From Caulobacteraceae bacterium (GTDB taxonomy: Bacteria > Pseudomonadota > Alphaproteobacteria > Caulobacterales > Caulobacteraceae), in NCBI GenBank assembly GCA_947441065.1, contig CANESI010000002.1:1-64000 (forward strand): DNA of 64,000 nt, in the 5' to 3' direction. The position numbers and the translations under genes are program-made. Positions 14,887 to 19,204 of this stretch are shown here, piece by piece. A model generated the notes under the pieces. That model had not been told where the DNA came from, did no database searches, and saw only the letters and a list, made by a program, of their open reading frames with translations. Numbering within the stretch: position 1 is the stretch's first letter; each line of letters starts with the position of its first letter.

Positions 14887-16848
14887 ATGACCCGCGAGGC
14901 TGATCTTTCGTCTGAAGGGGTGCAAGGAGCGCCAACACCGTCCGTGAGCTTGGCGGTGATCGGCCATGTGAACCATGGCAAGACGGCGCTGGTTCGGGCC
15001 TTGACTGGCATGGAGACCGACCGGCTCAAGGAAGAGATCGAGCGGGGCCTGTCCATCACGCTCGGCTTCGCCCATGCCGCGCAGGGCGGGGTCATGTTCG
15101 ACCTGATCGATGCCCCCGGCCATGAGGACTATATCCGCGCCATGGTCAGCGGCACGGCGGGGGCGCGGGCCGTGCTGTTGGTCGTCTCGGCTACAGAGGG
15201 CTTTGGCCGTCAGACCTTTGAGCATCTGGCGATCGCGGCGGCGCTCGGTCTAGAGGCCGGGCTGGTGGTGGTGACCAAGGCCGATCTGTTGGGGCCGGGA
15301 GACGAGGCGGCGGTCATCAGCCAAATCACCGCCGATCTGCGCGGCACCATCCTTGAAGGTCAGCCCATCATCCTCTGTTCGGCCCATAGCGGCGCGGGTC
15401 TTGAGGCCGTGCGAGAGGGGCTGCAGGCGCTCGCCGATCGATGCCCTCTGCCGTCCCCGCTCACCGGAGCCTTCTTGCCCATCGACCGGGCCTTTAGTCT
15501 GACCGGCGCAGGGACCGTGGTGACCGGCACCTTGCAGGGCGCAGGCCTGAGGGTCGGTGAGGCGGTCGAGCTTTGGCCGTCGGGCCAGAGGGCCAGCGTG
15601 CGCCAGCTTCAAGTCCATAACCAAAGCGTGGGCCATGCCGAACCGGGGGGCCGGGTCGCGGTCAATCTGCGGGGTCTATCGGCCAAGGATGTGGCCAGCG
15701 GCGAGGTGCTCTGCCGCGCCGGCGCCTTTGCGCCCAGCACCCAAGTCGATGTGATGATCACCCTATCGGTGCAGGCCTCGAAGGGCCTGAAACATATGGA
15801 CCAGATCAAGGTCCTGTGGGGGGCTCGGCAAGATATGGCCAGCCTGCGTCTGATGGAGGCCGGCACCCTTGCGCCGGGGCAAAGGGCGCTGGCTCAGCTT
15901 CGGTTTGCAACGTCCGTCGTGGCCTATGGCGGTCAAAGGGCCGTCCTTCGCCGCCCCTCTCCGGTTGAGACGCTGGGATCGATTAGGGTACTGGATCCGC
16001 TCGCGCCGCCGATGAAGGGGCGATCTGGGCCAAGGCTTGCTCTTCTTGCCGCTGTGGCCTCAGGTGAGGTGGAAGCGATTGTCCAAGCCCTCGCGGACTG
16101 GAGCGGTGGCATCCTGTTGGTCGCCGAGGCCGCGAGACTGACCCGCCGAACGGTCAGCGATCTTTTGCCCCTTTTGGTGACGGACTATCAGCCCCTTGGC
16201 GAGGGTCAGCTTGTCCGGCGCGCTGATGTGGCAGCGGCAAAGCAGGCCTATGTCGTCGCCCTAACAACCGCCCACGCGCTCGCCCCGATGCATGCCGCAG
16301 CTTCACTCGCAGAGGTTCGCAAGGCGCTGGCCAAGGACCATGGCCGGGACCTTATCGCCCATGCCGAACAGGTCTTGGCGCTAGAGGGTTTGATCCGGCT
16401 CGAGGGGGCCAAGGTCGCGCTGGCGAGTCACGACCCCCTGACCAGCCTGACCGCCGATAGCCTTGTCCGCCTTGGCGAGATCGAGGCGCGGCTCCTCCAA
16501 GCCGGGCTCATGCCGCCCGATGTGGCGACCGTCGCGGGCGATGATGAGGAGGCCACAGCCCTGATGACGCTTTTGGTAGAGACCGGGCGGGCCGTCGCCT
16601 TGCGCAATGGGGCCCTTCGCCAAACCCTGACCTTTCATCACCAAGCCCTGTTGGATGCCGCGCCCAAGCTTCGAAGCCACTTTGCGCCGCCGCAAAGCTT
16701 CACGACCGGGCAGGCGCGGGCAGCGCTGGAAACCACTCGCAAATATATCGTCCCGGTGCTGGAATATCTCGACCGCCTCGGCCTGACCCGCAGAGAGGGG
16801 GATGTGCGGCAGGTCCTGAGTGAGGGTGACGTACCCACCGCTCCCTAG
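14887..16848 (+). CDS. selB: Selenocysteine-specific elongation factor SelB
   Basis: This 653-residue translational GTPase delivers Sec-tRNA to UGA codons marked by a SECIS element. G1 is GHVNHGKT (residues 26-33), G3 is DAPGHEDY (75-82) and the guanine motif is TKAD (130-133). EF-Tu-like domains 2 and 3 follow. The C-terminal half (about 390-653) holds the winged-helix repeats that bind the mRNA hairpin, ending in KYIVPVLEYLDRLGLTRREGD, a typical last SelB winged helix. The gene lies 74 bases upstream of the tRNA-Sec gene and heads the co-directional selenium block. selA is not adjacent, unlike the common selAB arrangement. Confidence 0.96.
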   Translation: MTREADLSSEGVQGAPTPSVSLAVIGHVNHGKTALVRALTGMETDRLKEEIERGLSITLGFAHAAQGGVMFDLIDAPGHEDYIRAMVSGTAGARAVLLVVSATEGFGRQTFEHLAIAAALGLEAGLVVVTKADLLGPGDEAAVISQITADLRGTILEGQPIILCSAHSGAGLEAVREGLQALADRCPLPSPLTGAFLPIDRAFSLTGAGTVVTGTLQGAGLRVGEAVELWPSGQRASVRQLQVHNQSVGHAEPGGRVAVNLRGLSAKDVASGEVLCRAGAFAPSTQVDVMITLSVQASKGLKHMDQIKVLWGARQDMASLRLMEAGTLAPGQRALAQLRFATSVVAYGGQRAVLRRPSPVETLGSIRVLDPLAPPMKGRSGPRLALLAAVASGEVEAIVQALADWSGGILLVAEAARLTRRTVSDLLPLLVTDYQPLGEGQLVRRADVAAAKQAYVVALTTAHALAPMHAAASLAEVRKALAKDHGRDLIAHAEQVLALEGLIRLEGAKVALASHDPLTSLTADSLVRLGEIEARLLQAGLMPPDVATVAGDDEEATALMTLLVETGRAVALRNGALRQTLTFHHQALLDAAPKLRSHFAPPQSFTTGQARAALETTRKYIVPVLEYLDRLGLTRREGDVRQVLSEGDVPTAP

Positions 16849-16922: not shown

Positions 16923-17017
16923 GGAGGCGACTGGGGTCTGGTGGCCTCCCTGGTCTTCAAAACCAGTGACACGTCCACAAGGCGTGTGGTGGGTTCGATT
17001 CCCATCCGCCTCCGCCA
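16923..17017 (+). tRNA. selC: tRNA-Sec (anticodon UCA)
   Basis: The 95-base gene has features particular to selenocysteine tRNA. The acceptor stem GGAGGCG pairs with CGCCTCC. A six-pair D stem is formed by GGGGTC and GGCCTC around a four-base loop. The anticodon arm is CTGGT / ACCAG with loop CTTCAAA, giving anticodon TCA at 16957-16959. A long variable arm (ACACG / CGTGT) precedes the T arm with TTCGATT. The discriminator G and CCA (17015-17017) are encoded. It sits between selB and the thioredoxin-fusion gene. Confidence 0.96.
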
Positions 17018-17069
17018 TCCCCTCGGCTCGATCTGGGGGAGCTATAGATCAATGAGCGAGGAAAGACCC

Positions 17070-18656
17070 ATGAGCGCGGCCCCATCCGGATTTTCCCTGA
17101 CCGATCAGAACGGCCAGACCCGCGTCTTTCCGACAGGGCGACCCAGCCTGATCTGTTTCCTGAAAGAGGACTGCAACACCTGTAATCTGGTCGCACCGAT
17201 CCTTGAGGCCTTCCATCAGGCTTGGGGCGAGCAGGCCGATATTTGGGTCTTGGGCCAGTCGAAGGACGGCAATCAGATCTTGCAGGACCGCCATGGCCTG
17301 ACCTTGCCCGTGCTCGATGATAGCGCCCTAAAGACGTCCTTCGCTTGGGGCTTTGAGATTGTCCCGGCCGTCTATTGGTTGGATGCGGAGGGCCAAGGCG
17401 GGCCCTGTGTCGAAGGCTTTGTGCGCACCGAATGGCAGGCCTTGGCATCGCAGATCAGCGCCGATCTCAAGGCTTCGGACTGCGGCGTGGTCTGGGCCGA
17501 CCTTCCCGACTGGCGGCCGGGCTGCGGCTCCAAACATCTGGACCGCGAGATCCATGACCGCCTGTTGGCCGAGGCCAACAATAGCCCCATCCGGGCGCGC
17601 CGGATCGAGATTGCCAGCAGCGATGATCTGGACGAGTTCATGTTCGATCAGGGCTTTAGCGACGGCCTACCTTTGGTCCCACCCACGCCAGAGCGGGTCC
17701 TGCGGATGCTGAGCGGCACACAAAGGGGCTCGCAAGAGATCGTCGCGGTGGTGCCGCCAAACATGGCCCCAGCTACGGTCGAGAAGGTCGCGATCAATGC
17801 GGTGATGGCCGGCTGCCGCCCCGAATATCTGCCGGTCGTCATCGCCGCGTTAGAAGCGGTGTGTACGGACGAATTTAACATGCACGGCGTCACAGCCACG
17901 ACCATGGGGGCCTCACCGGTCCTGGTGATTAACGGCCCGATCCGACAAAGGCTCGGCATGAATATGAAGCTCGGGGCTCTTGGGCCTGACAATCGGGCCA
18001 ATGCGACCATCGGGCGGGCCTTGCGGCTGATCATTCGCAATGTTGGCGGGGCCAAGCCGGGCGGCGTTGATCGCTCGACCCTCAGTACACCGATGAAATT
18101 TACCATGTGTTTTCCGGAATGGGAGGAGGGCTCGCCTTGGGAGCCGCTGCATGTCGAGCGCGGCTTTGCACCAAGCGACAGCGTCGTCACCGCCTTTGCC
18201 ATGACCAGCGGTCCGGTCCAGATCGTCGATCAGGAATCGCGCCAGCCCGACCAGATCGCCGGAACCCTAGGCCTGGGACTGGAAGGGATGTTCCTGTCCA
18301 AGATCCACCGCATGCCCGTCGATGCCCTGCTGGTGGTCTGTCCCGAGCATATCAAGACCCTGCTCAGCGATGGGCCCTATTCAAAGGCAAGACTTCGCGA
18401 TCGGATCCAAGAGGTCACGCGCAGGCCCCTGCGCGACATGGTGGCCAATGAGATCTCCGGCGCGGGCATCCCTCTGGCCAGCGCCGCCAAGATGACCGAG
18501 GCTCAACTGGATATGCTGGTACCAAAATTTTCCAGCGATCAGCATATTCACATCGTTGTGGCCGGATCAGAGGCGGGCAAGTTCTCGGCCGCCTTCCACG
18601 GCTGGGTGACCGGGCCAGCCGGTTCAGTCTCTGTTTCCAGAAAAATAGAATGCTGA
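17070..18656 (+). CDS. Thioredoxin-fold fusion protein, partner of the UGSC selenoprotein gene
   Basis: The 528-residue protein has an N-terminal thioredoxin-like domain (about residues 8-135). Its CxxC is C35-N-T-C38, and a VP at 98-99 sits at the cis-proline position. A second cysteine motif, PGCGSK, lies at 150-155. The large C-terminal region has no catalytic motif I recognise. It contains FSDGLPLVPPTPERV, MAGCRPEYLPVV and HGVTATTMGASPVLVINGP, which read as a conserved enzyme-like domain. ATG 17070 has GAGGAAAG just upstream; an ATG at 17052 is possible. The selenoprotein gene starts 29 bases after the stop, so co-transcription is likely. The last codons are Cys-UGA-UAG, which leaves open a C-terminal Sec. 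Confidence 0.8.
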   Translation: MSAAPSGFSLTDQNGQTRVFPTGRPSLICFLKEDCNTCNLVAPILEAFHQAWGEQADIWVLGQSKDGNQILQDRHGLTLPVLDDSALKTSFAWGFEIVPAVYWLDAEGQGGPCVEGFVRTEWQALASQISADLKASDCGVVWADLPDWRPGCGSKHLDREIHDRLLAEANNSPIRARRIEIASSDDLDEFMFDQGFSDGLPLVPPTPERVLRMLSGTQRGSQEIVAVVPPNMAPATVEKVAINAVMAGCRPEYLPVVIAALEAVCTDEFNMHGVTATTMGASPVLVINGPIRQRLGMNMKLGALGPDNRANATIGRALRLIIRNVGGAKPGGVDRSTLSTPMKFTMCFPEWEEGSPWEPLHVERGFAPSDSVVTAFAMTSGPVQIVDQESRQPDQIAGTLGLGLEGMFLSKIHRMPVDALLVVCPEHIKTLLSDGPYSKARLRDRIQEVTRRPLRDMVANEISGAGIPLASAAKMTEAQLDMLVPKFSSDQHIHIVVAGSEAGKFSAAFHGWVTGPAGSVSVSRKIEC

Positions 18657-18685
18657 TAGCCTCCCCTCAGGACTGGAGAAAAGCC

Positions 18686-19204
18686 ATGACCACCATCTTG
18701 GACCCGACCGATGAGCGGGTCCCCGTCGAACGGCAGATCACCGCGCGAACCGGAGATATTTCCGGCATTGTCGGCCTGCTCGATATTCATAAGCCGCGTG
18801 GCAATATCCTGCTCGATGAGCTCGAGCTTCTGCTGGCGACGCGCTATCCCAAGGTCGAGCTGAGGCGCTATACCAAGCCGACCTTCGCCAAGCCTTGCCC
18901 GCCTGATCTGCGCCTGCAGATCCGCTCAGAGTGCGACTATCTGGTCGAAGCCCTAGCCGATTGAGGATCATGCACGACGTGCAGTTTGCACGACACTGTA
19001 TGGTTTGAAATCCAAGGTCTTCCCGCCGTCTCCATCGCCTCTAGCGAATTTGCTGAAGCGGCCCAAACCCAACGAAAAGCGCTGGGCATGGAGGGCGCGC
19101 GCTATGTGCTGGTGGATCATCCGATCCAAGACGCCACCGATGACGAGATGCGGGGCAAGGCCAGAGCCGTGCTCGATCAGGTCATTGCGGCCCTGACGGT
19201 CTGA
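18686..19204 (+). CDS. UGSC-family selenoprotein (in-frame UGA read as selenocysteine)
   Basis: The frame runs from ATG 18686 to UGA 19202-19204 and gives 172 residues if the UGA at 18962-18964 is read as Sec93. The local sequence is then ALAD-U-GSCTTCSLHD, which carries the U-G-S-C signature of the UGSC (seleno)protein family. Sec93 and Cys96 form a UxxC-type redox pair, with Cys99 nearby. Protein-like sequence continues in the same frame on both sides of the UGA. A SECIS-like hairpin lies just downstream (18978-18992), and selB and selC are within 4 kb. GGAG lies about nine bases before ATG 18686. A frame from ATG 18650 is open too but has no ribosome site. The reaction is unknown; a thiol/selenol oxidoreductase role is inferred. 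Confidence 0.92.
18965..18997 (+). promoter_or_regulatory. Bacterial SECIS-like element
   Basis: Directly after the in-frame UGA, CGTGCA (18978-18983) pairs with TGCACG (18987-18992) around a GTT loop. The loop begins 19 bases after the UGA, inside the usual bacterial window of roughly 16-37 bases, and has G first, as bacterial SECIS elements require. Only the six-pair upper stem is clear; lower pairing is weak. Confidence 0.75.

Follow-up and report, generated by a model that had tools for sequence, protein, structure and literature searches.

The window analysed here is the first 64,000 nucleotides of contig CANESI010000002.1, from a freshwater Caulobacteraceae bacterium. On its forward strand lie selB (14887–16848; TIGR00475, 272.1 bits against a cut-off of 242.25), the gene for the selenocysteine tRNA, tRNASec, with anticodon UCA (16923–17017; detected by ARAGORN and by Rfam RF01852 with 77.2 bits), a gene that we call P2 (17052–18656) and a gene of the UGSC selenoprotein family (18686–19204), which contains an in-frame UGA. 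The upstream selB and tRNASec genes had already been noted in a first-pass annotation of this DNA; the partner gene at 17052–18656, the selB–tRNASec–P2–UGSC block and a probable relation of UGSC to GrdB and PrdB go beyond it. We propose, with modest confidence, that the UGSC and P2 products together form a thioredoxin-fed selenol/thiol reductase.

The UGSC gene and its in-frame UGA

The gene spans 172 codons including that for selenocysteine (Sec), ends at the TGA at 19202–19204, and by eye has a GGAG 7 nt 5' of its ATG. Its translation gives 172 residues with a single internal TGA, codon 93 (18962–18964), in the context ALAD-U-GSC-TTC, before the terminal TGA. Residues 93–96 form the UGSC signature, which is also present in 80/80 named relatives. 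These are the best 80, by similarity, of 284 confirmed relatives; loci L001–L005 duplicate genomes in the named set or are close neighbours of it, and the alignments took in 59/80, 51/80 or 58/80 named loci, each with the window added. The closest named relatives come from uncultured Caulobacteraceae bins, followed by metagenome-assembled genomes named Phenylobacterium. The read-through product matched PF24696 (Pfam) over residues 3–171 (E 3.5e-48, 164.4 bits, curated cut-off 25) and NF041046 (NCBIfam) over residues 29–171 (167.5 bits, curated cut-off 125), in agreement with the family assignment made in the first-pass annotation.

A conventional table 11 reading of this frame yields two open reading frames (ORFs), 18650–18964 and 18986–19204, and readthrough is predicted here from sequence. 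It could therefore be argued that the UGA is a genuine stop, or an assembly error, and that its two sides belong to separate genes or to gene remnants. We consider this extremely improbable. The alignment of homologues across the UGA, which the first-pass annotation had proposed as a check, is continuous, and the codon 93 site is TGA in all 80 named relatives (68–99% identical; L012–L091). Over the full set of 90 aligned rows there are 87 TGA and three TGC codons, with the TGC rows L008 and L011 representing one place. On the 3' side of the UGA, synonymous changes account for 53–82% of the codon differences when the read-through frame is used, against 6–22% and 0–5% in the other two frames (seven chosen relatives). 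The stretch 18686–19204 thus combines an in-frame UGA aligned with Sec or Cys in homologues and coding constraint beyond it; together with the PF24696 match on both sides, this pattern upholds the earlier claim that the flanking sequences encode one protein. The stop reading is also opposed by the near-frozen codons of a hairpin following the UGA, described below, and by the presence in the genome of tRNASec, SelB, SelA and SelD.

The earlier claim of a hairpin resembling a bacterial selenocysteine insertion sequence (SECIS) was likewise supported. When the 45 nt from the UGA were folded, the energy was −16.2 kcal/mol (z −2.76), and 3/200 shuffles did equally well; a 79-nt piece from the same region was not unusual (z 0.21). 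The putative SECIS apical stem-loop lies at 18978–18992 on the forward strand, with a GUU loop that starts 20 nt after the UGA. This is a hairpin right after the UGA with a small apical loop containing G, the form in which the part of PMC1088965 used here words the requirement. Its six-pair apical stem is kept in 59/59 sequences, with one compensatory change, G–C to A–U. The longer stem, 18965–19006, was obtained only by energy folding of the window sequence and is frequently disrupted in relatives; its lower part is paired in 81% of alignment cells and broken in many sequences. Because the apical stem hardly varies, covariation is thin, and the stronger argument is therefore the freeze on synonymous change. 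Normalised synonymous entropy was 0.20 over codons 98–103, against 0.78 upstream and downstream, and the lowest three of the 69 six-codon windows start at codons 97–99 (75 rows: the window and the 74 of the 77 loci L015–L091 that meet its pattern).

Taken as sequence evidence, these observations make it almost certain that 18686–19204 is a genuine UGSC-family selenoprotein gene with codon 93 read as Sec. The warning that gene callers would split such genes was borne out once, on Paracoccus ferrooxidans plasmid pFER4 (L123, 4399–4968), where the UGSC homologue was deposited as two hypothetical proteins divided at the UGA; selB lies a few genes away.

The conserved block and the partner gene P2

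SelB was found in 61/64 and tRNASec in 62/64 of the UGSC loci that have at least 4.5 kb of upstream sequence. The usual gene order at these loci is selB–tRNASec–P2–UGSC, and five loci depart from it: SelB is on the opposite strand in L075 and L081 (both counted within the 61), L078 lacks SelB and has its tRNASec further upstream, and L085 and L087 lack both. The four genes are a conserved block. The remaining machinery, selA and selD, was found elsewhere in the genome, away from the UGSC locus, so that SelA, SelB, SelD and tRNASec are all encoded; selD is the C-terminal end of a 755-residue frame. At L148 (6145–9457) selD is fused behind an apparent FAD/NAD-dependent oxidoreductase domain, and by eye its neighbour resembles tRNA 2-selenouridine synthase. 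None of the three Fdh-alpha matches in the window's own genome contains a TGA, and therefore Fdh-alpha offers no other reason for the Sec machinery; no search was made for further selenoproteins. Conservation does not extend to the genes that follow UGSC in the window: TM196, ALDH and TauD occur near UGSC in 2/72, 3/72 and 2/72 relatives respectively, and they were rejected as members of the system on these grounds.

P2 encodes 534 codons when read from the ATG at 17052. A second ATG, at 17070, corresponds to a Met present in several relatives, and the true start is more likely one of these two positions. The longest table 11 ORF for P2 begins at a GTG at 16941, inside the tRNASec gene (additional stretch 16941–17051). 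At E 0.01, neither Pfam nor NCBIfam has a model that matches the 17052–18656 product. Its N-terminal domain (17070–17471, forward strand; residues 7–140, with CNTC at 41–44) resembles thioredoxin, TlpA and ResA: the predicted model aligned with 3gl3_A with a VIA-align Z of 17.0 and a root mean square deviation of 1.8 over 133 aligned residues, and a phmmer search of PDB sequences with P2 returned mainly thioredoxins, the best at E 0.0059, plus weak others. On the predicted model, the P2 N-terminus is a thioredoxin fold with a CxxC motif, as in the Thioredoxin/TlpA family. A PDB sequence search with the P2 alignment gave no match.

The rest of P2 (17598–18653, forward strand; residues 183–534) is a domain of an unnamed family, here P2C. 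Searches of Pfam, NCBIfam and PDB sequences linked it to no known family in an intelligible way, and the structure-match lists obtained with whole P2 as query were filled by the thioredoxin domain. A P2 relative adjoins UGSC in 77/80 named loci, and the three misses begin within 6 bases of a contig end. When 398 genomes of the phylum were scanned, five had UGSC and five had P2C, and these were the identical five, the window's own genome among them. The chance of such full overlap is 1 in C(398,5), or ~1e-11, if shared ancestry is ignored. That the two 398-genome sets are the same was taken from their equal counts and handles; few candidates were scored per genome, with E-value limits of 0.001 and 1e-10. 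UGSC and P2C are also fused in one frame in L006, L108, L115, L121, L122 and L124. Sequence association of this kind makes it very likely that the two are functionally paired.

UGSC is sparse, being present in 6/60 close relatives in addition to the 5/398 phylum genomes; a further scan (4/299) covered the same phylum and is not independent. P2C occurs on plasmids in 24 records from haloarchaea, Actinomycetota, Bacillota and Pseudomonadota, and for P2C on viral contigs 53 pattern matches gave none that was confirmed. The plasmid loci examined were 19 of the 24 records (H3, H17 and H22–H24 are outside the set), L114 and L123 being near-identical. UGSC is adjacent or fused to P2C in 18/19, and its site residue in these 18 is Cys in 13, Sec (TGA) in three and Met in two. 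Hidden Markov model scores at the P2C loci are inflated, since the same sequences trained the model; PF24696 and NF041046 are independent of it. The annotation of Neorhizobium galegae VafX2 (L120, 4368–6036) divides the UGSC–P2C fusion into two genes that overlap in different frames, and in L124, from a relative of L120, the fusion lies in one frame.

Predicted fold of UGSC and its probable relation to GrdB and PrdB

The UGSC model (predicted local distance difference test score, pLDDT, 91.6) is built of five strands that alternate with helices and places Sec93 between strand 85–91 and helix 94–109, at the helix start. Structure matches listed for it include azoreductases, flavodoxins, lumazine synthases and receiver domains; the Foldseek matches are weak, with template modelling scores of ~0.5 or less. 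One PDB sequence search with UGSC returned nothing and another returned three matches, of which the best (E 0.045) was a designed P-loop protein. The predicted fold is Rossmann-like rather than thioredoxin-like.

These data bear on a suggestion already in print. The passage on UGSC in a 2026 review (PMC13188914) groups it with families that are for the most part uncharacterised; the sentence ends with a thioredoxin-like fold, perhaps meant for the last items only. The same passage agrees with the first-pass annotation that the reaction of the family is not established. Were UGSC a thioredoxin-fold thiol oxidoreductase, its role could be that of a general redox or antioxidant protein. UxxC is indeed a redox motif and a thioredoxin domain is encoded next door, and the hhalign score of UGSC against that P2 domain, 22.6, is slightly above the best shuffled PrdB-like control (22.2, see below). 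The associated probability is 3.9, and the alternating strands and helices of the model and the kinds of structure that it matches are unlike thioredoxin. No thioredoxin appears among the matches listed (two lists of 50 rows), which by itself excludes nothing. We have set the thioredoxin fold aside for UGSC on the strength of the model and the hhalign probability, and regard this explanation as quite improbable. The predicted fold speaks against thioredoxin; it does not alone prove kinship with GrdB.

That kinship is suggested by profile searches. Among 18950 NCBIfam models scanned with 27 UGSC members, UGSC_fam was matched by 27/27, and the next most often matched were GrdB (TIGR01917; six members, best E 0.0091), GrdF (four) and PrdB (TIGR04483; three, best E 0.011), with one match each for TIGR01918 and GrdH. 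In 6/10 members the GrdB/PrdB-matching stretches span the UGSC motif, at GrdB profile positions 327–423 and PrdB positions 128–222. For a comparison of profiles we used a PrdB-like set of ten proteins of Pseudomonadota, two of them with Sec (L134 and L141); the three that were scanned matched TIGR04483 at E 4.7e-20 to 6.3e-24, below its cut-off, and a PDB sequence search with a PrdB-like protein gave no match. Aligned by hhalign with this set, the 27-row UGSC profile gave a probability of 86, an E-value of 4.9e-6 and a score of 45.7 over 92 columns, with Sec/Cys placed on Sec/Cys. Masking both motifs did not lower the score (49.5). Controls scored less: 200 column-shuffled profiles reached at most 22.2, reversed profiles 12.8 and 13.1, and ten unrelated small families, some of them Rossmann-like, 11.3–19.2, these families holding 2–5 sequences each against ten in the PrdB-like set. 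Genome G195 encodes the PrdB-like proteins L134 and L141, both with an in-frame TGA (UPVCHQ), as well as two UGSC genes and three P2C stretches.

Several observations weigh against this relation. The single-model E-values are weak, 0.0091–0.13, and far under all curated cut-offs, the best of the 27 members reaching 14.9 bits against 602.2. The Pfam GRDB model PF07355 was matched by 0/27 members at E up to 5, and neither the window's own protein nor L106, L107, L114 and L006 matched any GrdB or PrdB model in NCBIfam. Five unrelated NCBIfam models were matched once each by the 27 members, and one unrelated model, TIGR00150 (E 0.0014, one member), outscores those of GrdB and PrdB. Because the single-model matches are weak and PF07355 is unmatched, the case rests on the profile comparison, in which a probability of 86 is short of certain, the E-value is for one comparison, and the PrdB-like proteins form a narrow set and are themselves uncharacterised. 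Close UGSC relatives keep the third Cys of UxxCxxC, which is not conserved family-wide. A search for PF07355 in the window's own genome also gave no match, but no control matched either, so that absence is not established. The missing PF07355 matches and the better chance match to TIGR00150 led us to lower our estimates, both for homology and for the mechanism considered below. We conclude from sequence profiles that UGSC and the catalytic domain of GrdB/PrdB are probably remotely homologous, with Sec/Cys aligned to Sec/Cys.

A proposed mechanism and comparison with known systems

In the clostridial reductases, GrdE and PrdA hold the substrate, and a partner of the GrdE/PrdA type is a pyruvoyl proprotein. 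We believe, somewhat more than we doubt, that the UGSC and P2 products act as a two-component reductase resembling the Stickland reductases, fed by thioredoxin and with P2C as the substrate subunit. UGSC would consist of a single domain related to the catalytic one of GrdB/PrdB: Sec93 would open a helix that follows a beta strand in the Rossmann-like sheet, and Cys96 of UxxC would be the resolving residue. P2C would hold the substrate in the manner of GrdE or PrdA, two proteins to which its sequence shows no detectable similarity. The Sec93 selenol may then attack the substrate and take up a leaving group or carbon fragment, with two electrons breaking a C–N, C–S, C–O or similar bond. The resulting Sec93–Cys96 selenenylsulfide would presumably be reduced by the thioredoxin domain of P2 or, in some relatives, by TrxA/TrxB encoded nearby. 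We infer the binding of UGSC to P2, the binding of substrate by P2C, the chemistry and the electron path.

The gene neighbourhoods of plasmid loci are consistent with such an electron path. Six candidate reductase genes near the pair at the 19 plasmid loci were scanned, and five matched TrxB, three of them above cut-off. Genes of the trxB type adjoin the pair or lie at most two genes away in Roseovarius, Arthrobacter (with trxA), Variovorax (two strains) and Haloterrigena, and by eye there is one near the pair at two Neorhizobium loci. Some Cys forms have TRAP/TTT transporters and CoA-transferases as neighbours, a hint of an organic-acid substrate.

A different division of labour deserves consideration. 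Catalysis could in truth belong to P2C, which might be a lyase, an isomerase or a hydrolase, for instance; the UGSC domain would then serve for binding or regulation, and its Sec/Cys would do no more than relay electrons or protect the site. Met replaces Sec/Cys (MGTS) in the fusions of Sporomusa termitida (L108, 6431–8155) and Vibrio europaeus (L115, 6362–8047), which retain both the UGSC and the P2C domains; therefore no selenol or thiol attack can take place there at that position. These variants are the main evidence against a purely redox role, and they perhaps represent a non-redox branch of the UGSC family. In addition, P2C has residues that are invariant across 23 sequences (D204, P211, G295, R322 and E356), haloarchaeal plasmids L112, L118 and L119 each carry two P2C paralogues flanking one UGSC, and the remaining plasmid locus, L117, has P2C without UGSC. 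The cost of maintaining Sec in 80/80 close relatives, with SelB and tRNASec alongside at nearly all loci, is hard to explain for a bystander, and the trxB-type neighbours and the fused thioredoxin domain suggest redox chemistry. We therefore judge it unlikely that P2C is the true catalyst, while noting that the Met variants and L117 count against the reductase that we propose. So do the position of the L108 and L115 fusions near aconitase X and DUF126 genes, the lack of any clue to the substrate from TM196, ALDH and TauD, given their rarity near UGSC, and the outcome for pyruvoyl-type partners: no GrdE/PrdA model was among the NCBIfam matches of 23 P2/P2C members (the rest of the genome was not searched), and P2C was rejected as a GrdE or PrdA for this reason.

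As a tentative extension of the proposed reductase, UGSC and P2C might constitute a separate Stickland-type class, distributed among aerobic bacteria and haloarchaea, with no pyruvoyl partner, a new substrate domain and its own thioredoxin supply, splitting a bond in a small organic acid, with selB and tRNASec serving as a portable Sec kit in these Alphaproteobacteria. If true, chemistry of anaerobic fermentation would be present in common water bacteria. The likeness to GrdB and PrdB, enzymes that split glycine and proline in fermenting bacteria, is a first testable lead for the UGSC reaction, and the family, so far an orphan, becomes an assayable system through its recurrent partner, its likely reductant and its mechanistic relative.

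The UGSC family itself is already known, and is listed or counted in the sections consulted of PMC9312934, PMC5330540 and PMC5029168; a term search for UGSC in PMC8124441 found nothing. In the sections consulted of this literature there is no link of UGSC to GrdB/PrdB, to a thioredoxin–P2C partner or to a conserved selB–tRNASec block. Relative to those sections, the P2C partner, the conserved block, the probable GrdB/PrdB homology with a predicted Rossmann-like fold and the thioredoxin domain of P2 are new.

The window protein does not differ in itself from the family described by PF24696 and NF041046; the partner domain, the selB–tRNASec block and the GrdB/PrdB relation are absent from the parts of the family descriptions available to us. 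A conserved domain, 'Unknown_1', is fused to UGSC in the GOS metagenome, according to the relevant part of PMC2398784, and its identity with P2C is a guess. With GrdB, GrdF and GrdH (TIGR01917, TIGR01918 and PF07355) UGSC shares the UxxCxxC motif and weak similarity around it; the review cited above gives UxxCxxC as the GrdB motif and thioredoxin as the reductant of that reductase (PMC13188914, in the passage concerned). It differs from them in its length of 172 residues, against profiles of 431–435, in scoring below their cut-offs and in not matching PF07355, and P2C matches none of the NCBIfam models of that system. With PrdB (TIGR04483) and the PrdB-like proteins of Pseudomonadota it shares the 92-column profile match that sets Sec/Cys on Sec/Cys; it differs in falling below the PrdB cut-off, in the lack of a PrdA-like match in P2/P2C, and in that G195 holds both kinds as separate genes.
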